Shown here: positions 43,510 to 56,191 of the stretch, one piece after another
How the letters are laid out: each line of letters starts with the position of its first letter
Position numbering within the stretch: position 1 is the first letter of the stretch
Assembly (NCBI GenBank): GCA_902777605.1
Contig: CACYUI010000008.1
Location: 1-56,428 of the forward strand
Source: an uncultured bacterium
GTDB taxonomy: Bacteria; Cyanobacteriota; Vampirovibrionia; Gastranaerophilales; Gastranaerophilaceae
Reading direction: 5' to 3'
Length of the DNA: 56,428 nt
The notes under the pieces: model-generated
What the model saw: only the letters and a program-made list of their open reading frames with translations
What the model was told of the DNA's origin: nothing
Databases searched by the model: none
Position numbers and translations under genes: made by a program

Positions 43510-45489
43510 ATGAAAAAATTCAAAATTGGTCTTTTTACATTATTTGTTGTTTTTGTTTTATATTGTGTTTATTTCTTAACTTACACATTTGTTGAACCTA
43601 AAGCATATGATTTTATGGTAAGAAATGTTCTTACAGAGGCCCTTCCATTCGATCAAAATAAAAATATCTATGGGCATGGTGATGTTGTAATAGTCCTTAT
43701 TGATGCAAAAACAAATGACAAATACAGATGGCCATGGAAAAGAGATCGTGTAAGCAAACTCTTGAAATTTTTTAAAGAGTATACTACTCCAAAAGCAATT
43801 ATGCATGACCAGCTGATACTAACATTGGATAAAGAAAACCCAAGCGCTGATAAACAGTATTTTTCTACGGTAAACAATTTTGAAAATCTTGTAGAAGGAT
43901 TTATGCCAAATATTAATTATTGGGAAGAACAAGGCATAAGCGAACAAGAAGGAAATGCCTACGAACAAAAATTTAAACAAAAATATGCCGTTATGCCGTA
44001 TCAAGGAAAAGTTAAACCCATTTTATTTAACAGTTTGGCAAGATTTCCGCAACCGTATTTTGATGTTGTAAAAAACACAGGGCATGTTATAAACCTTCCC
44101 GGTTTTTTTGATGGAAACTTTATATCAGATGAAATTTACAGAACCACTCAAAACTTTATAAACTACAAAGGCATCCTTTATCCCTCACTTGCAATGAAAA
44201 CTTTTCTATTAATTAATAACAATCCCGATGTTAAACTAACCGATAATGAAATATTTTTTGACAAATTAAATTACAGAATAAAACAAAAAACGACTGATTA
44301 TATAATGTTTACACCAATCAGATATTACAAGTTTTATGAAGGATATTCTCATCCTGTTGTTTCAGCAGTAGATATTTTGGATTCTTATGACAATATCAAA
44401 AACGGAAAGAAACCGATTATTAACCCTGCATTATTCAATGATAAAATTATAATTATAGGCGCAAATGTCCCTGCGACTAAAGGATTAAATGATAATCTTA
44501 ACAGCCCTATGACAGCAAATCATCCGGGAGTTGATATTCAAGCTACAATAATTGACAATTTGATGCATAGAGATTTCTTAAAGCTAATACCACAATGGTT
44601 AAATCTTATTGTCACATTACTTGGTATGTTGTTTGTTTATTATACAATCAGATGCCATAATATAATTAAATCAGTAATATATACAATCTTTATGATTGTC
44701 ATATATTTGGCGGCAGCCTCTACTGCTTTCTATTATGCAGTAATAGTAAATGTTATAACTCCGCCGGTTATGTTTGTTATTACAATGATAATAGCTTATG
44801 TCCACAGATATATAATTGAAGCCAGAAACAAAGAAAAAGTAAAAATAGCAATGGGCAAATATATGTCAGAAGATGTTATGGAAAAGGTTATTCAAAATAT
44901 TGACAATTTGGGTCTTGGAGGTAAGAAATCGACTGTAACCGTATTATTTTCTGATATTAGAGGTTTTACATCCATGTCGGAAAAAATGTCTGCCAATCAA
45001 GTTTCTGAACTTTTAAATGAATATTTTTCTGAAATGGAGCCTATTATAACAAAATATAACGGCATTATTAATAAATTTATTGGCGATGCTATTATGGCTG
45101 TTTTTGGAGAACCAATTCAAGACGACAATCATCCTCAGAATGCTGTTAAATGTGGTATAGAAATGTTAGATAAGGTTCAAGAACTTCATACAAAATGGAT
45201 ACAAGAAGGAAAGCCATTGATAGAAATAGGAATAGGTATCAATACAGGAGAAGTTTTTGTCGGGAATATAGGTTCAGCTAAAAGAATGGAGTATACTGTA
45301 ATTGGTGATACTGTCAATTTGGCAAGCAGACTTGAAAGTTATAATAAAACTTATCATACAAAATTTTTAATTAGTTCTTTTACATACGAAGCATCAAAAG
45401 ATATTATTGAAGTAAATAAAATTTCTGATGTGGAAATTAGAGGAAAATCTCACAAAATGGATATATACGAAGTTTTAAGACTAAAATAA
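43510..45489 (+). CDS. CHASE2-domain class III adenylate cyclase
   Basis: 659 residues. N-terminal TM (about 4-24), periplasmic CHASE2 domain (about 30-355), three TM helices (about 365-440), then a class III cyclase domain (about 470-655). Metal-binding D482 in LFSDIRGFTSMS and D526 in KFIGDAIMAVFGEP are both present. MEYTVIGDTVNLASRLES holds the D/T-type purine-specificity and the N/R transition-state residues, consistent with ATP as substrate. This layout is very common in cyanobacteria. It senses an unknown periplasmic or membrane signal and makes cAMP. AAGGAAATT gives the start. It is upstream of coaD and close to the chemosensory locus. Confidence 0.93.
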   Translation: MKKFKIGLFTLFVVFVLYCVYFLTYTFVEPKAYDFMVRNVLTEALPFDQNKNIYGHGDVVIVLIDAKTNDKYRWPWKRDRVSKLLKFFKEYTTPKAIMHDQLILTLDKENPSADKQYFSTVNNFENLVEGFMPNINYWEEQGISEQEGNAYEQKFKQKYAVMPYQGKVKPILFNSLARFPQPYFDVVKNTGHVINLPGFFDGNFISDEIYRTTQNFINYKGILYPSLAMKTFLLINNNPDVKLTDNEIFFDKLNYRIKQKTTDYIMFTPIRYYKFYEGYSHPVVSAVDILDSYDNIKNGKKPIINPALFNDKIIIIGANVPATKGLNDNLNSPMTANHPGVDIQATIIDNLMHRDFLKLIPQWLNLIVTLLGMLFVYYTIRCHNIIKSVIYTIFMIVIYLAAASTAFYYAVIVNVITPPVMFVITMIIAYVHRYIIEARNKEKVKIAMGKYMSEDVMEKVIQNIDNLGLGGKKSTVTVLFSDIRGFTSMSEKMSANQVSELLNEYFSEMEPIITKYNGIINKFIGDAIMAVFGEPIQDDNHPQNAVKCGIEMLDKVQELHTKWIQEGKPLIEIGIGINTGEVFVGNIGSAKRMEYTVIGDTVNLASRLESYNKTYHTKFLISSFTYEASKDIIEVNKISDVEIRGKSHKMDIYEVLRLK

Positions 45490-45522
45490 TTTTATGTTAT
45501 AATTTTGAAAAAAGGTATTAAT

Positions 45523-45993
45523 ATGAGTATTGCAATTTTTCCGGGAAGTTTTGACCCTATAACAAACGGGCATTTAGATATTATAAAAAGTGGTGCGGAA
45601 ATTTTTGACAAGATAATTGTTGCTATATCTTTTAATTCAAAGAAAAAAGGGTTTTTACCGACTGAAATAAGAAAAAAGCTTATAGAAGAGAGCGTGAAAG
45701 ATATACCAAATGTAGAAGTGGATTTTTTTGAAGGCTTAACCGTTGAATATGCCCAAAAAAAAGGTGCGAGCATATTGTTGCGTGGTCTTAGAACCTCTGC
45801 AGATTTTGAGTACGAGAAAGAGTTGTCGCAAACAAACAGCTCGCTTTATCAAAATATTAAAACAGTTTTCTTAATTACTAAACCGGAATTTTCATATATA
45901 TCGTCATCAGGTGTAAGAGATGTTCTTTTAAACAATGGTGATATTTCAAAATTTGTACCGAAACCGGTTTCCGAATATTATAAAAAGCATTAA
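45523..45993 (+). CDS. coaD: Phosphopantetheine adenylyltransferase
   Basis: 156 residues from ATG 45523, which sits after AAAAAGGTATTA; an upstream in-frame ATG at 45505 would add six residues not found in the family. FPGSFDPITNGHLDI carries the T-x-GH nucleotidyl-transferase motif; LLRGLRTSADFEYE binds phosphopantetheine; FSYISSSGVRDV is the ISSTxVR-like motif with Ser in place of Thr. It makes dephospho-CoA. The 3' end overlaps the convergent CheA-like gene by 4 bp. Housekeeping gene between the cyclase and chemosensory genes. Confidence 0.95.
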   Translation: MSIAIFPGSFDPITNGHLDIIKSGAEIFDKIIVAISFNSKKKGFLPTEIRKKLIEESVKDIPNVEVDFFEGLTVEYAQKKGASILLRGLRTSADFEYEKELSQTNSSLYQNIKTVFLITKPEFSYISSSGVRDVLLNNGDISKFVPKPVSEYYKKH

Positions 45994-48956
45994 ATATGAT
46001 ATTTTGTCAGCAACTCTTTAACCTGTTTTGAAAATTCATCTTGATCAAAATTTTCTTTGCATATATAAAAATTAATATTATATTGAGAAAGATTCTTCAA
46101 AGCTTCTTGTTTTGGAACAGAACTCATTATAATAATTGGAATATCAGCATACATTTCGTCATTTTTAATTTTTGCAATAAATTCGTATCCGTCAACTTTA
46201 GGCATATTTAAGTCTGTCATGATTAAATCATAATGGAGTAATTTTAATTTAACAAAAGCCTCTTCTACATCAGCGCATATATCTACATTGTATCCCGAAT
46301 TCATCAATATATTTTTAATCATTGTTCTTGATGTTATAGAATCATCAACAACCAAAATTCGTTTATACGATAATATGTCGGAAGTAAGTAGTTTTGGGTT
46401 ATTACTTGATGCTATTGCTTTATTAAAATCATAATGCATAATGTCTTGTATATTAAGTATAAGACATAGCTCTCCAGAAGCTAAATTAGTGACACCTGCA
46501 ATGTTTTTGACTTTATATAACGGCGAAGGAAGTTTCTTTTGTAAAATGTCCTGATCTCCTAAAAGTTTGTCAACAACAAGCCCGATAATTTTTTCATCAG
46601 CTTCTATTATTAATATTGTTTCTTTGTCCTCTGGTTTTTTAGTTGTTTCGAGCTCTAAAATATCAGACAAATAATACAAAGGTATGATATCATTATTGTA
46701 TACAATAGAGCGAATCCCATTATTTGTTTTAATTTCATTTTGTTTTTTTACTACAAATGTTTTTATTACTTGTATAGGAATTGCAAATGTCTGTGAATCA
46801 ACACCAACAAGGAAAACTCTCAGCGTAGTAAGCGTTACAGGGATTTCAATATGAATACAACTTCCTTTACCAAATTCAGAAACAACTTTAACTTTTCCGT
46901 TTAGTTGGGAAATCTTGGTTTTAACCACATCCAATCCGATACCCCGTCCGGAAATGCTTGTAATCGAATCTCCGGTTGTAAATCCCGGCCAAAAGATGAT
47001 ATTCATAATAGCTTCATCAGTCATAGATGCGATATCTTCTTTCGTTAAAAATCCTCTTGAAACAGCTCTGTCTTTTATTTTTTCCAAATTGAAACCACGA
47101 CCATCATCTATAACTTCAATGATAACAGTATTGTCATCTTGTTTTGCAGATAAAGTAATTCTTCCAACGGCACTTTTGCCACAAGCAATTCTTTCATCCT
47201 TTGTTTCAATACCATGATCGATAGCATTCCTTAAAATATGTATTAAAGGTGTCTTTATTTCTTCTATAATCTTTTTATCTGCACATGTATCGTTGCCTGC
47301 AATCTCAAAATCTATATCTTTGCCTTTTTCATTTGCAATATCTCTAACCATTCTTGAAAAAGAATTAAATACTGTAGATATTGGTAAAACTCTTATGTTT
47401 TTTACCATAGATTCCATTTCATCAATAATTAGACGCATTTTGATATCGTCTTCTTTAGACGAACGATAAAGCGAAGATAGATCATATATATTGCGCGATA
47501 TGTTTTGGGTTATCTCTGATAAAAGCGAAAAAACTTGTTTTACAAATGCAGTCGTATATTGTTCAGAATTGCCTGTTTGCAAATATTTTCTATTATAATA
47601 TCTTAAATAATTTGATGTTTTAAGCAAATCTTTTTGGCATATTTCGTTAGAAACCTTTATTGCATCAATTTTTTCCAGATTTTTTTCTGTTTTAATTTTT
47701 GTAATGATAAGTTCACCAAGTTGATTAACAAGCAAATCCAATTTTTGAGCATTAACATGCAAAGTTTTTATTTCAGAAGATGATGATTTATTATTTTGAA
47801 CATTTTGAACCATCATATTTTTCGTTTCGGTAATTCCCGTATCTTTTTTATAGCTTAATTCTAAAAGCTGCTTCATTATTTCAAGCTGTTGTACAATTAA
47901 GTCACTATCAATGTTCTCGTTTGGAGAAGCGCAATATTCTATGCCGCTTTTCAGTGTAAGCATCATTTGCTCTTCTAGTTGAACAGAATTGTCAACAATA
48001 AAATCAAGTATTTCCAGTACTATATTAATAATTTCCAGTATAGTACTATCTGTTATTGTTACTTTTAATTTTAGGATATCTTCTTTTATCTCGGATGTAT
48101 ATATACTGCTTCCTTGAAGCATGGATATTTTTTCTGCAACATCAAAAAATGTTAATTCCGATGATGTAGTTTCTATGCAAGATGTTGAAAATTTTGATAC
48201 TGCAGAGCCAAGCTCGTTTCTTAATTCTAAAATTTCACTTATTGTAAATGTTCCGGATGCATTCATTACAAAATCAAGTTTTGTAATAACATTTTCTAAA
48301 GACGATTTTATTTCATATATATTAGAATCTTTAAAAAAATTGTATATTTTCTCAACTTCTTCTTTCAAAAGTACTATATCTTGAGATTCTTCTTCAGGTA
48401 CTATACTATCAATTAATTCAAAGCAAGTGTTAAATGACATGTTTATTTGTTCTTGATGTTCGCTCAAATATTCTGATATATGAGAACTGTCATCCAATAT
48501 ATTATTAGTATCGATATTTAAGTCTGCATCGTTAGCAATTGATTTTTGTTGTTCCGGAATTTCAACATCTATAATATATTCTATATTTGAAATAATAGTT
48601 GTATAATTTTCATCAATTATCTCCCTCTCATTTTCTATTGATTCTTCGAGATATTTAACTACAGTTTCCAAAGAGTGTGATAGGAGGTTTATTGTAGGAG
48701 TATCTATTATAAACTTTTTTTCTTTTATTGCATCAAAAATATCTTCCATTTTATGGACTATATTTTGTATGTTAACATAACCAACCATTCTTATTGCACC
48801 CTTTAAGCTGTGCAAATCGCGGTAGATATTAACAATTAATTCCTGGTTGGAAGGTTCTTTTTCAAGGCTAAACAGATTATTAAATATTCGTTCAATAATC
48901 TCTTCAGATTCTGTCTGAAAAATAGACATAAGTTCCTTGTTGTTCTCGTTATCCAT
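45990..48956 (-). CDS. Hybrid CheA-type histidine kinase with C-terminal receiver (ChpA-like)
   Basis: 988 residues. Order: Hpt domain with H49 in RDLHSLKGAIRMVG; a long helical region (about 130-390) with no further clear Hpt histidine; a CheA dimerisation helix pair (about 400-540); HATPase with N box HILRNAIDHGIE, G1 DDGRGFNL, G2 GRGIGLDVV; a CheW-like domain (about 705-840); and a receiver domain with D915 in LIMTDLNMP. There is no separate CheY-binding P2. Kinase-plus-receiver fusions of this kind occur in Pil-Chp-type systems controlling type IV pili. It is translated 23 bp after the MCP gene. There is no CheR/CheB in the window. Confidence 0.93.
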   Translation of the reverse strand: MDNENNKELMSIFQTESEEIIERIFNNLFSLEKEPSNQELIVNIYRDLHSLKGAIRMVGYVNIQNIVHKMEDIFDAIKEKKFIIDTPTINLLSHSLETVVKYLEESIENEREIIDENYTTIISNIEYIIDVEIPEQQKSIANDADLNIDTNNILDDSSHISEYLSEHQEQINMSFNTCFELIDSIVPEEESQDIVLLKEEVEKIYNFFKDSNIYEIKSSLENVITKLDFVMNASGTFTISEILELRNELGSAVSKFSTSCIETTSSELTFFDVAEKISMLQGSSIYTSEIKEDILKLKVTITDSTILEIINIVLEILDFIVDNSVQLEEQMMLTLKSGIEYCASPNENIDSDLIVQQLEIMKQLLELSYKKDTGITETKNMMVQNVQNNKSSSSEIKTLHVNAQKLDLLVNQLGELIITKIKTEKNLEKIDAIKVSNEICQKDLLKTSNYLRYYNRKYLQTGNSEQYTTAFVKQVFSLLSEITQNISRNIYDLSSLYRSSKEDDIKMRLIIDEMESMVKNIRVLPISTVFNSFSRMVRDIANEKGKDIDFEIAGNDTCADKKIIEEIKTPLIHILRNAIDHGIETKDERIACGKSAVGRITLSAKQDDNTVIIEVIDDGRGFNLEKIKDRAVSRGFLTKEDIASMTDEAIMNIIFWPGFTTGDSITSISGRGIGLDVVKTKISQLNGKVKVVSEFGKGSCIHIEIPVTLTTLRVFLVGVDSQTFAIPIQVIKTFVVKKQNEIKTNNGIRSIVYNNDIIPLYYLSDILELETTKKPEDKETILIIEADEKIIGLVVDKLLGDQDILQKKLPSPLYKVKNIAGVTNLASGELCLILNIQDIMHYDFNKAIASSNNPKLLTSDILSYKRILVVDDSITSRTMIKNILMNSGYNVDICADVEEAFVKLKLLHYDLIMTDLNMPKVDGYEFIAKIKNDEMYADIPIIIMSSVPKQEALKNLSQYNINFYICKENFDQDEFSKQVKELLTKYHI

Positions 48957-48979
48957 ATTAATTTGTTTTCTTTTTGCAA

Positions 48980-50026
48980 TTATTCTTCTGAAGCAGCTGT
49001 TTTAATTGTATTTGACAATGCTTCTAGTGTTTTTATTTTTGTTTCATTAATTTCTAAGTTTTTCAAAAGCATTTCAGAGATATTAGATATCTCTTTGTCA
49101 AAACTATTAATGTGTTCTATAATATCATTTTGCTTTTGATTATTTTGATTTATGATTTCAAGCGATTCAAATATCTCCTTTGTTATATTAAGAAGTGCTT
49201 CAGAATCAGAAGAAATAGAATTTATTTCTTTAACAACAGATTCAATTTCTTTTGATCCCTCTTCGGTTGCCATAACAGTTGAATTAGTTGTGTATTGAAT
49301 ATTGTTGGTAAGTGAAGTTATTTTTGTAATCGCTTGCTTTGATTCATCAGCAAGTTTTCTGATTTCACCGGCAACAACTGCAAAACCTTTTCCGTGTTCA
49401 CCGGCTCTTGCAGCTTCTACGGCCGCATTCAGAGCAAGCATGTTAGTTTGTTCTGCAATGTCATCAACAACACTTATGGTGCTGCCAATTTGTTGAGAGT
49501 GTTCTGATAATTCAAGAATTAATTCTGCAATCATTTGAATTTTTTGTCTTAAAACTAACATTCTATCAGAATTTGATGAAATCGCATCGTGTTCTTTTTG
49601 CGAAAAATTGATAGATTGATTAACCTGTCTTTCAGTATTTTTAGATGTAATTTTCAAGCTTTCTGAAATTGCTTTAAGTTTTTCTATAAGATCAAAAATA
49701 CTTTTAGTATTATTAATTAATCCTTCAATGTTTTGATGTTGTGCATTCATGTTTTTCATCGTTTCTGTTACTGCCGAAGACAGTGTATTAGATTGTGAGG
49801 CCAAAGTTGTTTTTATCGTTTGATTAATCCAATGCTTTGAAAGAAAATGTGATACCGCATTAATTGTAATAACTACGGATAAGAATATAAAGGTATCATA
49901 TGCTGAAACATTTTTAATTTTTGCAAAAACTAAAAACAATACGCAAGTTATAACAAAAACAAAAACATCGATTATACATTTTATGCCAAATTTTTGTTTT
50001 AAATTCAAATTTAAATCACCAGACAC
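48980..50026 (-). CDS. Methyl-accepting chemotaxis protein without a periplasmic sensor domain
   Basis: 348 residues. Two closely spaced TM helices (about 14-35 and 40-60) leave no room for a periplasmic domain, so input must come from the membrane, cytoplasm or a partner protein. There is no clear HAMP. The rest is a coiled-coil signalling domain with the hairpin tip [20 protein letters not shown] and [21 protein letters not shown]. It should form arrays with the CheA-REC and CheW proteins beside it. It is first in the minus-strand operon, divergent from the REC-GGDEF gene, sharing an 86-bp promoter region with it. Confidence 0.93.
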
Positions 50027-50112
50027 TTTTCCACTCTCCTATAGTTTTTTTCCAATATTTATTATATAATTATTTTATACTAAAACTGTGAAAATTGGAA
50101 TATATAAATAAA

Positions 50113-51570
50113 ATGACGGTAAAAATATTACTGGTAGAAGATAGCGAAACACAATTGCAATTTTTAAAAAAAGGTCTCACAGACAATGGTTTTGAGGTTG
50201 AAATAGCTCAAAACGGAGCAGAAGCTTATAAAAAAGTTTTTGAATGTGCTCCTGATATAGTAGTGTCAGATATTATGATGCCTGCAATTGATGGATATCA
50301 ATTATGCCGTCTTATAAAAAACCACGAAGCTACAAGAAAAATACCGGTTATTTTGTTAACAATTTTAGATAGTAAAATTGATAGTTTCTGGGGGAAAAAA
50401 TCAGGAGCACAATTGTTTTTATCAAAATCAATTGACATTATAGAATTAGTAAAAAATATAAATGCTACTGTTAGAAGATATCCTGTTTCTGAAGACATAA
50501 AAACAAATATTCTTTCAAAATTAACAAATGAACAGCCTGCACAATCTCAGTTGAATACGATTTTGAATGATTTATTGATGAAATCAGTATTTGCAAACGA
50601 GTTTAGAAATCTAAGTGACTTTTTAAATTACGAAAGAATTCTTGTAGAAAAAATGTTTTCTTTATTAAGTTCTTTTGTTGAATATTCAGTTTCCGGAATA
50701 TTTTTTGCTTCTCCAGATAATTTTGCAGAAAATATTTTATATATTGATACATTAGGTAAAAATTTGTCTAAAAATCTGCTTTCAGATATTAAGTACGATT
50801 TTTTTAGAAAGATGGATGAGTTTAAAAATTATAATGATTCCAAATTTGAAGTTGTAAGGATTCTTATGGGCAAGGAAATGGATTATAATTTTAATGATTT
50901 TAAATCTAAAGTTATAATACCTCTTGTATTTGATAGAAATCTTATTGGAGGAATTTGTTTTTACACTCGTCAAGATATAGATTATTCTTCTTTTAGATAT
51001 TTTGATTTAATGTTAACAGAGCTTTTAACATTGTTTAAGATGAAATATCAATATACTGAAAAAGAATTTATGTCTGTATTGGATGGCTTAACGGGTTTAT
51101 ATAACAGACGACAATTTGAAATAGGTTTAGAACAAGAATTTAATCGCTCTAAACGACATCCATCTGATTTTAGTCTTGCAATTTTAGATATTGATTTCTT
51201 TAAGAAGGTTAATGATACCTATGGGCATCAATATGGCGATTATGTGCTGAAAACTGTTGCTAATCTTATGAAATCCTCTTTTAGAAAAACTGATATGTTG
51301 TATAGGTATGGTGGCGAAGAATTGGTAATGATTATGCCTGAAACAAACATTGAAGGTGCAATAATTCCTGTTCAAAGGCTAAGAAAATCAATAGAGGGTT
51401 ATGATTTTGATTACAACGGAGTTAAAGCAAAAGTAACTGTAAGCATAGGTTTAACTATGAATTATCAAGATTTTAATAATCATGCAGATATGCTAAAATC
51501 TGCAGATGAAGCACTATATAATGCAAAAGAAAGTGGAAGAAATAGGGTAATATTGCATGGAAAGCAGTAA
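50113..51570 (+). CDS. Response regulator with GGDEF diguanylate cyclase domain
   Basis: 485 residues from ATG 50113; a TTG at 50095 is possible but neither has a strong Shine-Dalgarno. Receiver domain (about 1-120): LLVEDSET, phospho-acceptor D53 in VVSDIMMP, and the T/K region. A middle domain (about 165-315) resembles GAF-like sensory folds. GGDEF domain (about 325-485): FKKVNDTYGHQYGD, RYGGEELVMI (GGEEL at 400-404, an active variant) with an RKTD inhibitory-site motif just before it. It makes c-di-GMP when activated, presumably by the CheA-REC kinase encoded divergently. Its last 14 bp overlap the double-CheW gene. Confidence 0.92.
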   Translation: MTVKILLVEDSETQLQFLKKGLTDNGFEVEIAQNGAEAYKKVFECAPDIVVSDIMMPAIDGYQLCRLIKNHEATRKIPVILLTILDSKIDSFWGKKSGAQLFLSKSIDIIELVKNINATVRRYPVSEDIKTNILSKLTNEQPAQSQLNTILNDLLMKSVFANEFRNLSDFLNYERILVEKMFSLLSSFVEYSVSGIFFASPDNFAENILYIDTLGKNLSKNLLSDIKYDFFRKMDEFKNYNDSKFEVVRILMGKEMDYNFNDFKSKVIIPLVFDRNLIGGICFYTRQDIDYSSFRYFDLMLTELLTLFKMKYQYTEKEFMSVLDGLTGLYNRRQFEIGLEQEFNRSKRHPSDFSLAILDIDFFKKVNDTYGHQYGDYVLKTVANLMKSSFRKTDMLYRYGGEELVMIMPETNIEGAIIPVQRLRKSIEGYDFDYNGVKAKVTVSIGLTMNYQDFNNHADMLKSADEALYNAKESGRNRVILHGKQ

Positions 51571-52549
51571 TTATATTGAACAAAAAAAGAATATGCACTT
51601 ATATTTTCAAGTAGGTGATAGCAAGTATGCTATTAATACTGATAATGTTTTGGAGATAATGAAGCTTCCTGCATTAGATTATCCTCAGAAACTTCCTAAT
51701 AATATAGTTGGGCTTTTAAAATATAATAACTTCGTTATAAATGTAATTGATATAAGATTCTATTTAGACATTGAAGTTTTGCCATATACTACAGAAAATG
51801 AATTGTTAATCGTCAAAACAGACGAATCTATTTTTGGTATTATAACCGATAAGGTTATTGGCATTTTGTCTTTTAATGCTGCGCTTGTTGATTCAATTCC
51901 TTTTGTTGACGGAAAGATGATAATAGACTCTTTATATAAATTGAATAAAGAGACAATGTTTATCATTAATACTTATGCAATTGAAAAATTGTTAAAAGAA
52001 CATGGAGATTGGGTAGAAGCAAATATTGCCTCATTGTTTCCGCAAGATAGTGCGTCGAAAGAAATATTTGCACAAAGAGCACTTGCTATGTCTGAAAAAA
52101 CTACATTAAGCTTAGTATCAGAATTTTCCAAAAGTAAATACATTTCATTCAATTTAAACAATGACTCATATTGTATAGAGCTTAGTTATATTAAAGAAGT
52201 TTTAAAAGACACTATTATAACTGATATTCCCGGAACTCCTGATTTTATTGAAGGAATTATAAATCTCCGAGGAGATTATATTACAGTACTTAATTTGAAA
52301 AAATTTTTATCAATACCTTCAGAAGAAATTCAAGAACATAAGCCGGTCATAATAGTTAGGTGTAATGAATTGGAACTGGCATTTTTGATTGACCAAATTA
52401 ACCAATTATTTGAGGCACAAATTGACAAAATTTTAGATTCAGGAGATGGTTATTTTCAAAGTGAATTCATATATCGGGATATACCATACACCATTCTTAA
52501 TGTGGAAAAAATCTTTGCTGACAAAAAAATCATAGTTACTGATATGTAG
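51557..52549 (+). CDS. Double CheW-domain coupling protein
   Basis: 330 residues, two CheW folds in one chain without a receiver. The first (about 10-145) begins LYFQVGDSKYAINTDNVLEI with LKYNNFVINVIDIRFYL. The second (about 190-325) has YISFNLNNDSYCIELSYIKEVL and GIINLRGDYITVLNLKKFL, the most canonical CheW strand pair. The domains are joined by a helical linker. It would couple the MCP to the CheA-REC kinase. Translation is coupled to the REC-GGDEF gene. Duplicated CheW is unusual and may bridge two receptor or kinase units. Confidence 0.9.
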   Translation: MESSNYIEQKKNMHLYFQVGDSKYAINTDNVLEIMKLPALDYPQKLPNNIVGLLKYNNFVINVIDIRFYLDIEVLPYTTENELLIVKTDESIFGIITDKVIGILSFNAALVDSIPFVDGKMIIDSLYKLNKETMFIINTYAIEKLLKEHGDWVEANIASLFPQDSASKEIFAQRALAMSEKTTLSLVSEFSKSKYISFNLNNDSYCIELSYIKEVLKDTIITDIPGTPDFIEGIINLRGDYITVLNLKKFLSIPSEEIQEHKPVIIVRCNELELAFLIDQINQLFEAQIDKILDSGDGYFQSEFIYRDIPYTILNVEKIFADKKIIVTDM

Positions 52550-52598
52550 TTTAAATAAAGTATAGTTACAAATTGTAAAATGTGATAATATAGTCTAT

Positions 52599-55175
52599 AT
52601 GGGACATTTTAAAAAAAAGTCAATAGCTTTAATTGTGGCATCTTTTTTGACAGTTGCAAGTTCTGTTGTAGCAGATGGCTATATAAACACTGTCAAAGCT
52701 CTTAAATTTGAAGATACACCTCAAGGGACAAATCTTACTATTTCTACGCAAAGTTCTTATAGTGGAACAATAAACCTTGTCAAACGAGATGCAAATACAT
52801 ATGTGATAATGCTTCCGGAAATAAGCAGCGAAAAAGGGCTATCTCCTACTTTAACTCCAAATATTAATAGCGTTGATATAAAAACAATACCATATACATC
52901 ATCCGGAAAAGGGTATACAAAAATTACCGTAAAAACATCTTCCGGTATTGCAATAACGACCAATAATACAGTATATACACCCGAGTTAAAAGATGATGAA
53001 AAAACACCTTCAGATATGTCAAACAACTATGACAATATGCATATTCGTAATGATGAAAAAAGGTATTCAAACACGCGTGATATAAATAATTATAGCAAGC
53101 AGAGAAATTATGATAGAAATGATAGAGTAAATGATACATATTCGGCTCAACAACAAACAGCAAAAATAGATAAAAACATTGAAAATAAAAATTTAAATAA
53201 TTCTATTCAAAAAGAAGTAAACTCAGAACCAATTACTAATACAGAAGAAAATTATAGTAATATAGAAAATCAAAAGGTAAATACAGAAGTTGGTCCAAAA
53301 CAGGCAAAAGCTGAGGATTTAATATATTTTTTGGGCGGATTATTATTGGTTATAACTATAGTGGTATTTTTGTATATTAAGTCAAAGCAAAAACTTTCCG
53401 AAATGGTTGGTGATCAATCTGACTTGGATTTTTCTGATGATTCAAAACAAAATAAAAAACCAACTAAATCGCAATCAGCATCTTCAAGAAAAATAAGGCA
53501 AACTATTGCGCAGCTTGATAGAATGTATGCAAAGCCAGCGAATATGTCTTTTAGTAAGGTAGATGAAAATTCACAAACTGTAAGTGATCCTTCAAATGAA
53601 ACCGTTGAAGAAGATAATATAGTTGATCTTGATGAACTTTTCCAACAGCAAAAAAAAGAGCAAGAAATAATCAATAAAGATAATACAGAAGAAGAAGAAG
53701 AAAATGAAGCTTTAGATGCATTTTTAAGTAGTTTTTCTTTTGATGAAGATTCGCAAAAAGATAATTTTGATGAGCAAAAAATAAACGAAGGTCTATACAA
53801 TCAGTATATTAATGATGAGACTCTAAAGTTTACACATGATGATGTAAACAAAATAAATGCATTAATGAAAAACGAAATAAGTGAGTCCGCAGTAAACGAT
53901 ATGCTCAAAGAAAAAACAGTGCCTAAACCGACAAAACTATCGAAAAAAGAAATCCTTGAGCAATTGATGACTACATTGACTGTTAAACAAAATATAGTAT
54001 TTTCAAGAGATGATGTAGTTGCATTAAATAAATTAATCAGTGTTGAATTGGATAATGATTTTATAACTGATTTGCGCACAAATCCGGAAAGAGTGCAAAA
54101 AATGCGCAGAGAAATTGAAGAACGAAGCGTAAGTGCATCCAAAAAAGTTAATGAGATTTTGACATTAAATGTTAAAGATATGTTGCCGGATTTGTCAGAA
54201 GCATTGAAAAAACAAGGGAAAAGAGCAATAGAATCAGAGGCAAAGCCGGAAGTTATTTATTATAATGAAGGATATGAATATACTACCCTTTCTATTAAAA
54301 ATGAACTTCCGGATTTACATTCGGAAAAAAATATCAAATCAAATACATATAGACCCTCTGATGATGTTGAATATTCCGTTGAGGGGTATGATGCACCAAC
54401 ATTGAAAATTGATGATATACTGCCGGATTTAAAGGATGTTAAAGCTCATCCTAAAAAATATGAAGAAAAAAAACAAAGTCCGGTGAAAGTAAATGAAAAA
54501 GAACTGCTGAAAAATATAAATAATGTTTCTTTCAAACCATTTTATGATGGAAATGAAGATTTTGAAATAATTAATAAACCGGAAGATTTCATTTCAGAAG
54601 AAGATATACATCAAGAATTTGAAGATTTCACAAATTTTGAAATTATAAATAATGATGATTTAAATAATGTAAATGATAATAAAGAGGAGTCTATAGAGCT
54701 AGAAGAGAATAGTTTTTATGATTTAGACGAAAATATTGAAGAAGTTCAAGATGTTGTCGAAGAAATTCCAGATGAAGATATTTTGAGGATTTTGGAGGAA
54801 GAAAAGGTCAAAAATTCCCAACAATGTTCTAGTGAAAAGGTAGCAAATGAGACAAAAACACAAGAACAAATCTCTACTCCAAGTATTTGTGTAATAGACA
54901 ATGAAACTTACAAAATAATAAAAACTCAAAATTTTACAGACAGAATGGGGTGCTATCTAGCTAAAAGTGATGAGGGATATGCTATTTTAGGTTATGTAGG
55001 AAATAAAATCTTTAAAATAAAATATTATGAAAAATTAAGTTCTGAAAATTTACAATCGAGAGTTAGCGAAAAATTACCTGATGGTTCTTTAAGATATATA
55101 GTAAGAATAGGATTGCATAAATTTATATTAAATGTAAGTCAAGATGATATGGAGTATGTAATGGATTTATGCTAA
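52599..55175 (+). CDS. FimV-like single-pass membrane protein with large acidic cytoplasmic region
   Basis: 858 residues. Signal-anchor (about 4-24), a periplasmic beta-rich AMIN-like domain (about 25-125; VKALKFEDTPQGTNLTI), a Asn/Asp-rich linker, one TM helix (about 243-262), then about 590 cytoplasmic residues rich in Glu/Asp. Within these are two related helical units (LKFTHDDVNKINALM at 409 and IVFSRDDVVALNKLI at 466) and three copies of a short T-L-x-[IV]-x-[DN]-x-LPDL motif at 522, 563 and 601. The C-terminal about 75 residues form a separate compact domain. The layout parallels FimV of Pseudomonas (peptidoglycan-facing domain, TM, acidic cytoplasm), but no direct sequence match is claimed. 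It has no clear Shine-Dalgarno; it overlaps the lipoprotein gene by 7 bp. Confidence 0.7.
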   Translation: MGHFKKKSIALIVASFLTVASSVVADGYINTVKALKFEDTPQGTNLTISTQSSYSGTINLVKRDANTYVIMLPEISSEKGLSPTLTPNINSVDIKTIPYTSSGKGYTKITVKTSSGIAITTNNTVYTPELKDDEKTPSDMSNNYDNMHIRNDEKRYSNTRDINNYSKQRNYDRNDRVNDTYSAQQQTAKIDKNIENKNLNNSIQKEVNSEPITNTEENYSNIENQKVNTEVGPKQAKAEDLIYFLGGLLLVITIVVFLYIKSKQKLSEMVGDQSDLDFSDDSKQNKKPTKSQSASSRKIRQTIAQLDRMYAKPANMSFSKVDENSQTVSDPSNETVEEDNIVDLDELFQQQKKEQEIINKDNTEEEEENEALDAFLSSFSFDEDSQKDNFDEQKINEGLYNQYINDETLKFTHDDVNKINALMKNEISESAVNDMLKEKTVPKPTKLSKKEILEQLMTTLTVKQNIVFSRDDVVALNKLISVELDNDFITDLRTNPERVQKMRREIEERSVSASKKVNEILTLNVKDMLPDLSEALKKQGKRAIESEAKPEVIYYNEGYEYTTLSIKNELPDLHSEKNIKSNTYRPSDDVEYSVEGYDAPTLKIDDILPDLKDVKAHPKKYEEKKQSPVKVNEKELLKNINNVSFKPFYDGNEDFEIINKPEDFISEEDIHQEFEDFTNFEIINNDDLNNVNDNKEESIELEENSFYDLDENIEEVQDVVEEIPDEDILRILEEEKVKNSQQCSSEKVANETKTQEQISTPSICVIDNETYKIIKTQNFTDRMGCYLAKSDEGYAILGYVGNKIFKIKYYEKLSSENLQSRVSEKLPDGSLRYIVRIGLHKFILNVSQDDMEYVMDLC

Positions 55176-56191
55176 AAAAGTTCATTGCGTCAATAGTTAT
55201 GCTGGTATTTATAACAGCATGTACGAACCAACAGTCTAAAGAGGAATTGTCATTTTCCTCTTGGGGTTCTATAACTGAGGTACAAGTTATACACAAAGTA
55301 ATATCTGATTTTGAGAAGCAAAATCCTGAAATACAGGTAAAGTTTATGCATATTCCTCAAAATTATTTTCAGAAATTACATCTTTTGTTTGCAGCATCTA
55401 CTCCTCCGGATGTAATTTTTATAAATAGCTTATATTTGCCTGTATACGCAGATGAACTCATTGATTTATCACAAATATTTGATTTTGCTCCGTTTTATGA
55501 AAAAAGTGTCGTAGCATTAAGTAGTGGCGGAAAGAAATTAGCAGTTCCAAGAGATGTTTCAAATTTTGTATTATATTATAACAAGAATATTGTAAAAAGT
55601 CCTAAAATTACAAACATAAGTGAATTAGAGAGCGTGCTATCAAAAGCAACAACAACCAAACACTGGGGAATAAGTTTTGAAAGAGATGTTTTTTTAGCGG
55701 AACCGTATACTTTGACATTAGGGGTTGATAAAGGAATAAATTTTTATAAAAATATAGAAGGAAAATATGCACCAAAACCTTCCGATGTTGGAAGTTCTAC
55801 TCTAGCGCAAATGTTTTTGGATGAGAAATTGGCATTTTATTTATCAGGTAGATGGATGTATCCCAAAATAAGTTCTACCGCAAAGTTTCCTTTTGGAATC
55901 ATTTTATTCCCGGGTAATGTTGCAGCAGACAGTTCAGGGTGGGCAATTTCCAAAAATACAAAACATAGAGATGCTGCCATAAAATTTGTAAAATATTTAT
56001 CATCAAAAGAGAGTATAGATTATTTTACGCAAACAGGCTTAATTGTGCCTGCAAGAATTGATTCTTCGCATGCATTAAATAATCCAAAGGAGAAGGTGTT
56101 TTTGGGTTCAATTAATACGTCAGTTCATGTAGAGCGAGGGAAGGATTATAATAAAAATCGAGATAAATTGAATAAACAATACTTTAATTAG
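55169..56191 (+). CDS. Extracellular solute-binding lipoprotein (ABC family 1)
   Basis: 340 residues. Lipoprotein signal peptide with lipobox FITAC, C18 lipidated. The mature protein has the family-1 fold: SFSSWGSITEVQVIHKVISD, FMHIPQNYFQKLHLLFAAST, PPDVIFINSLYLPVYAD, PRDVSNFVLYYNKN and a closing KHRDAAIKFVKYLSSKES. Such proteins bind sugars or oligosaccharides. No permease or ATPase genes follow; a tRNA lies next. It is translationally coupled to the FimV-like gene (7-bp overlap), so a sensory role, delivering ligand information to that locus, is possible. Transport with a distant permease is the alternative. Confidence 0.88.
   Translation: MLKKFIASIVMLVFITACTNQQSKEELSFSSWGSITEVQVIHKVISDFEKQNPEIQVKFMHIPQNYFQKLHLLFAASTPPDVIFINSLYLPVYADELIDLSQIFDFAPFYEKSVVALSSGGKKLAVPRDVSNFVLYYNKNIVKSPKITNISELESVLSKATTTKHWGISFERDVFLAEPYTLTLGVDKGINFYKNIEGKYAPKPSDVGSSTLAQMFLDEKLAFYLSGRWMYPKISSTAKFPFGIILFPGNVAADSSGWAISKNTKHRDAAIKFVKYLSSKESIDYFTQTGLIVPARIDSSHALNNPKEKVFLGSINTSVHVERGKDYNKNRDKLNKQYFN

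Follow-up and report, generated by a model that had tools for sequence, protein, structure and literature searches.

Gene content of the locus

The window, by which we mean the whole 56,428-nt stretch of DNA analysed here, corresponds to contig C8 of an assembly of 1.99 Mb (97.8% complete), and the named records closest to it are gut and rumen MAGs of Candidatus Gastranaerophilales. At its chemosensory locus, four genes form two divergent pairs that we refer to as the core. On the minus strand, cheA-REC (45990–48956) encodes a hybrid kinase of 988 amino acids with Pfam domains in the order Hpt (H49), dimerisation, HATPase, CheW and REC (D915), and mcp (48980–50026) encodes an MCP of 348 amino acids. 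Across a short intergenic region (50027–50112), the plus strand carries dgc (50113–51570), whose product is a diguanylate cyclase of REC, GAF-like and GGDEF domains according to Pfam, a residue check and the predicted fold (485 amino acids from its ATG), and cheW-cheW (51557–52549), which by Pfam encodes a coupling protein of two fused CheW domains (330 amino acids). These are followed on the same strand by genes for an AMIN-like membrane protein (52599–55175) and a solute-binding lipoprotein (SBP, recognised by Pfam; 55169–56191). On the cheA side, also on the plus strand, Pfam identifies a CHASE2 protein with a class III nucleotide cyclase domain (43510–45489) and coaD (45505–45993), which adjoins cheA within the genus only and does not belong to the unit. 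The ORF list and Pfam place every ORF and domain named by the first-pass annotation where it had put them, and its statement that CheR, CheB and flagellar genes are absent holds for the window itself; CheA and the GGDEF protein carry the only receivers at the locus, with no stand-alone receiver of the PilG/PilH type.

The residues checked, which took in the Hpt histidine, the ATP-binding boxes, the aspartates and lysines of both receivers, the GGEE motif, the I-site and the receptor tip, were invariant or conservatively replaced in 46–50 sequences; within CheA, H49, the N and G boxes, D915 and K967 were invariant among 46 homologues. Both the GGEE active site and the RxxD I-site of the diguanylate cyclase are intact, and the protein resembles the phosphorylation-activated PleD, DgcR and WspR. 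Its start codon is probably ATG 50113 and not TTG 50095 (491 amino acids from the TTG), since its homologues begin at the former. H49 and D915 had been numbered correctly in the first reading of the sequence, while the D53 given there corresponds to D59 of the longer, TTG-initiated frame. Further diguanylate cyclases are encoded elsewhere in the window genome, so the c-di-GMP pool may be shared.

Conservation of the core and its neighbours

Comparing gene order across 58 regions fetched from relatives, we found the core, with cheA-REC and mcp on one strand and dgc and cheW-cheW divergent from them, in every genus genome whose contigs cover the locus, as well as in six other Gastranaerophilales families. 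Its presence in each of the order's families that we examined means that the grouping is not due to chance. The divergent layout was kept wherever contigs allowed, except in genomes G038 and G052, where the genes are split but present: in both, dgc and cheW-cheW lack an adjoining cheA-mcp pair, which in G052 sits on another contig. The proposal that Gastranaerophilales share a conserved chemosensory array whose output is a diguanylate cyclase was thus supported. A profile search found CheW domains of the window genome at this locus only, making it the sole Che system of this genome, as it is of nearly all genus genomes read; the double CheW is absent from ten genera of the window's family. When plasmids were searched by tblastn for a close relative of the CheA, identity reached at most about 37% across half of its length, and a literature search returned no paper joining Gastranaerophilales with c-di-GMP and no chemosensory-GGDEF locus devoid of CheR or CheB.

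Of the neighbours that had been read as one unit, the four core genes are conserved together, whereas the CHASE2 cyclase, AMIN and SBP genes do not belong to the core. In the gene-order comparison of relatives, none of the other loci had a cyclase homologue next to it, and inclusion of the cyclase in the unit as an adenylate cyclase was not borne out. Nearly all genomes of the genus contain the AMIN gene, but of 33 only about 20 have it beside cheW; outside the genus its matches are weak and N-terminal only. These findings argue against including the AMIN gene or the SBP gene in the core. Wherever the AMIN gene was found in the loci examined, the SBP gene lies directly after it and overlaps it, and the overlap is kept with or without the che locus (window 52599–56191; L105–L108). 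The two genes are a separate bicistron whose linkage to the core is limited to part of the genus; by eye, no ABC permease was recognised after the pair.

The AMIN protein has a signal peptide, an AMIN-like domain (residues 31–125), a transmembrane helix (242–260), an acidic low-confidence region and a C-terminal all-beta domain (763–856). Although the AMIN-like domain had no Pfam match, its predicted structure supports the assignment, residues 29–130 matching AmiC (4bin) with a Z score of 8.0 over 94 residues and the domain matching PilQ (4av2) with a Z score of 7.5, both moderate; fold comparison of the C-terminal domain returned common beta arrangements only, at Z scores of 8 or less. FimV is marked by a periplasmic LysM domain and a TPR-type cytoplasmic C-terminus. 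Pfam matches neither of these in the AMIN protein, whose model combines the AMIN-like N-terminus with the all-beta C-terminus, and the likeness to FimV proposed earlier appears superficial. Possibly, the two proteins serve as an envelope-sensing or carbohydrate-binding pair; the SBP is unlikely to present a ligand to the MCP, because the latter has no periplasmic domain.

Receptor and adaptation

The MCP is predicted to have two transmembrane helices (residues 17–35 and 45–63) with about 10 residues between them, and in Pfam and the transmembrane prediction it shows neither a periplasmic domain nor a HAMP match. We found no methylation-consensus site in any of 47 MCPs of the system; classical MCPs from the che clusters of relatives carry one to four such sites each (six of six). 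No CheR or CheB is linked to the core in the relatives compared by gene order. Among receiver-bearing ORFs, none had the make-up of CheB as judged by length, the two near 290 amino acids being of OmpR type. CheR-like proteins do occur in the window genome, yet they have the SAM domain without CheR_N, are unlinked to the che genes, and are without a match in 8 of the 37 good genomes (zero to five matches per genus genome). Together with the lack of consensus sites, these features suggest that the pathway probably runs without methylation-based adaptation. The CheR-like candidates themselves (L101:137–979, L102:3050–3790 and L099:8797–9594; G000:C6, C1) were set aside as adaptation enzymes on their missing CheR_N and lack of linkage.

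Flagellar genes and FliM

The first-pass annotation had assigned the locus to a non-flagellated lineage, which is wrong: the window genome carries flagellar genes, with ten flagellin-N matches, fliL-fliM-fliN, a fliF-fliH-flhA2 cluster, and fliP-fliR-flhB-flhA followed by a PilZ gene. Flagellar genes have been reported from gut Melainabacteria, as full sets in some cases and partial ones in others (PMC3787301, PMC4040986, PMC5877343), and Di Rienzi et al. (2013) described these organisms as flagellated but without chemotaxis genes (PMC3787301). Two further observations concern this gene set. A CHASE2-GGDEF protein adjoins the fliF-fliH-flhA2 cluster (L098:5759–7606, G000:C1), a possible additional link between c-di-GMP and the flagellum. 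Beside an OLD-like TOPRIM gene, a 488-amino-acid protein has a match to the FlhA family that is restricted to the family's C-terminal half (PF00771 321–655; L100:6016–7482, G000:C10), and partial FlhA-family matches like it occur in most genomes of the order.

Within the window's family, FliM was found in 38 of 53 genomes with the system and in none of the 20 listed genomes without it (by genus, 10 of 14 versus 0 of 10), a co-occurrence with Fisher p = 8e-9 by genome and 0.0006 by genus, uncorrected for phylogeny. T2SSE pilus/secretion ATPases, by comparison, are present in 73 of 73 family genomes regardless of the system, so that FliM tracks it and these ATPases do not. Fifteen family genomes keep the system without FliM, from which it follows that it has another job too.

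FliM of families f2–f6 begins with the CheY-binding motif LSQxEIDxLL. In the window's family, none of the 48 FliM loci read (a set in which some genomes count twice) carries this motif, nor do the two FliM read in family f7 or the FliN of the window genome. In f5 and f6, where the FliM motif is kept, the only CheW domains found are the three of the system, which speaks against an exclusively flagellar role. All 36 genomes checked have a PilZ gene no more than 500 bp from flhA, and the one in the window genome carries the c-di-GMP-binding signature RxxxR...DxSxxG. In one MAG contig, a direct link to motor genes was seen: in G052, the cheA-mcp pair of the system comes after fliL-fliM-fliY-cheB-cheR on one strand (L087, G052:C222, 9103–18307; L080, G052:C226, 8427–10988; genes named from sequences and profile matches).

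Comparison with known chemosensory systems

Judged by its sequence composition, the unit has its closest analogue in Wsp and not in Pil-Chp. Wsp, the ACF-type chemosensory pathway of Pseudomonas, has two CheW-type coupling proteins, WspB and WspD. Its kinase WspE phosphorylates the diguanylate cyclase WspR, and the pathway includes a methyltransferase (WspC), a methylesterase (WspF) and a methylatable receptor (PMC8552884). The unit described here likewise brings together a CheA-REC hybrid, an MCP, two CheW domains and a REC-GGDEF output in one locus, but it has no linked CheR or CheB and no methylation-consensus sites, its receptor lacks a periplasmic or extracellular sensory domain, its CheWs are fused, its cyclase contains a GAF-like domain, its genes are laid out as two divergent pairs, and it is confined to Gastranaerophilales in the sets searched. 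Because neither linked CheR/CheB control nor a sensory receptor was found, the sequences describe a stripped Wsp-like pathway and not a member of Wsp.

The Pil-Chp system of Pseudomonas aeruginosa (TFP class) also combines a hybrid CheA with a C-terminal receiver, an MCP and CheW; by contrast, the CheA here has a single Hpt domain match, PilG/PilH-type response regulators are not linked, the output is a GGDEF protein, and there is neither a syntenic adenylate cyclase nor a linked pilus gene. The earlier choice of Pil-Chp, FimV and CyaB as the model is not supported, given a cyclase unlinked in relatives, a separate AMIN-SBP pair, the composition of Wsp, and T2SSE genes that do not discriminate. 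The locus is real and conserved, and was mis-modelled on Pil-Chp and on a lack of flagella.

Classical flagellar chemotaxis (F classes), which is also present in families f2–f4, shares with our unit the MCP-CheW-CheA array core and a flagellum in the same cell, but here no CheY, CheB or CheR is linked and the FliM of the window's family is without the CheY-binding motif. In Caulobacter, the CheY-like Cle proteins mediate c-di-GMP control of the flagellar motor (PMC5677366). As in PilZ (YcgR-type) and Cle motor control, c-di-GMP would plausibly be read at the motor, in this case by the flhA-adjacent PilZ protein; unlike in those systems, the cyclase would be driven directly by the chemosensory array.

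Proposed pathway and alternatives

On balance, we favor a reduced, adaptation-free, Wsp-like c-di-GMP pathway that would act at least partly on flagella. The part leading from chemosensory array to c-di-GMP is very probable, and the chances that the flagellum is the main target appear evenly divided. For phosphotransfer, c-di-GMP synthesis, flagellar target and stimulus, we infer the following course. The sensorless two-helix MCP would form an array with CheA-REC and the fused double CheW; CheA would autophosphorylate on H49 and pass the phosphate to the receiver of the REC-GAF-GGDEF protein, which would then make c-di-GMP, with CheA's own receiver probably acting as a phosphate sink or competitor. 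Within the genus, this pathway would substitute for CheY-FliM signalling. The c-di-GMP would probably act on the flagellum via the flhA-adjacent PilZ protein, with MshEN or PilZ targets of pili or the surface as possible further sites of action; most likely, a membrane or internal cue would raise c-di-GMP so that flagella are braked or tuned.

The strongest competing explanation, which we nonetheless regard as unlikely, retains the same pathway to c-di-GMP and directs its main output to type IV pili or surface attachment through MshEN-containing PilB-type ATPases and other PilZ proteins, the flagellar link being historical. The T2SSE-MshEN ATPase of the genome, the pilin-like genes within the window and the persistence of the system in the 15 genomes devoid of FliM are all consistent with it, but the ubiquity of T2SSE ATPases set against the tracking of FliM speaks for flagella, and the gene-order comparison of relatives shows no recurring pilus gene next to the core. 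A further alternative is ordinary flagellar chemotaxis through an unrecognised CheY, a stand-alone receiver that the array would phosphorylate and that would act on the motor, leaving the GGDEF protein as a side branch. A 134-amino-acid stand-alone receiver does exist in the window genome (G000:C9:28871), and families f5 and f6 retain the FliM motif; this receiver, however, sits in an operon-like run with a T2SSE-MshEN ATPase and its own HisKA kinase (L157:3047–7218, G000:C9), for which it was set aside as a CheY, and with neither FliM nor FliN of the window genome carrying the docking motif, we consider this explanation improbable. Pil-Chp-like control of the neighbouring CHASE2 cyclase and cAMP, as the first-pass annotation had modelled, is hardly credible even with the cyclase gene only 0.5 kb from cheA in the window genome, because the cyclase is without synteny at the other loci read, no CheY-type or receiver connection to it was seen, and the AMIN gene behind the resemblance to FimV is unlinked to the core outside the genus.

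Returning to the favored reduced Wsp-like pathway, its boldest form may well prove too strong: 'chemotaxis without CheY', in which a flagellated gut family would have lost classical chemotaxis together with the site at which CheY docks on the motor, and would control its flagella only through a methylation-free array, c-di-GMP and the flhA-adjacent PilZ protein.

The presence of a chemosensory system in much of the group qualifies the published absence of chemotaxis genes in gut Melainabacteria (PMC3787301), and FliM is missing from every genome of the sampled family that lacks the system. Overall, the locus would offer a compact case of a chemosensory array shifting from CheY-type switching of the motor to a second messenger, and a case for a Wsp-type pathway operating without adaptation enzymes.
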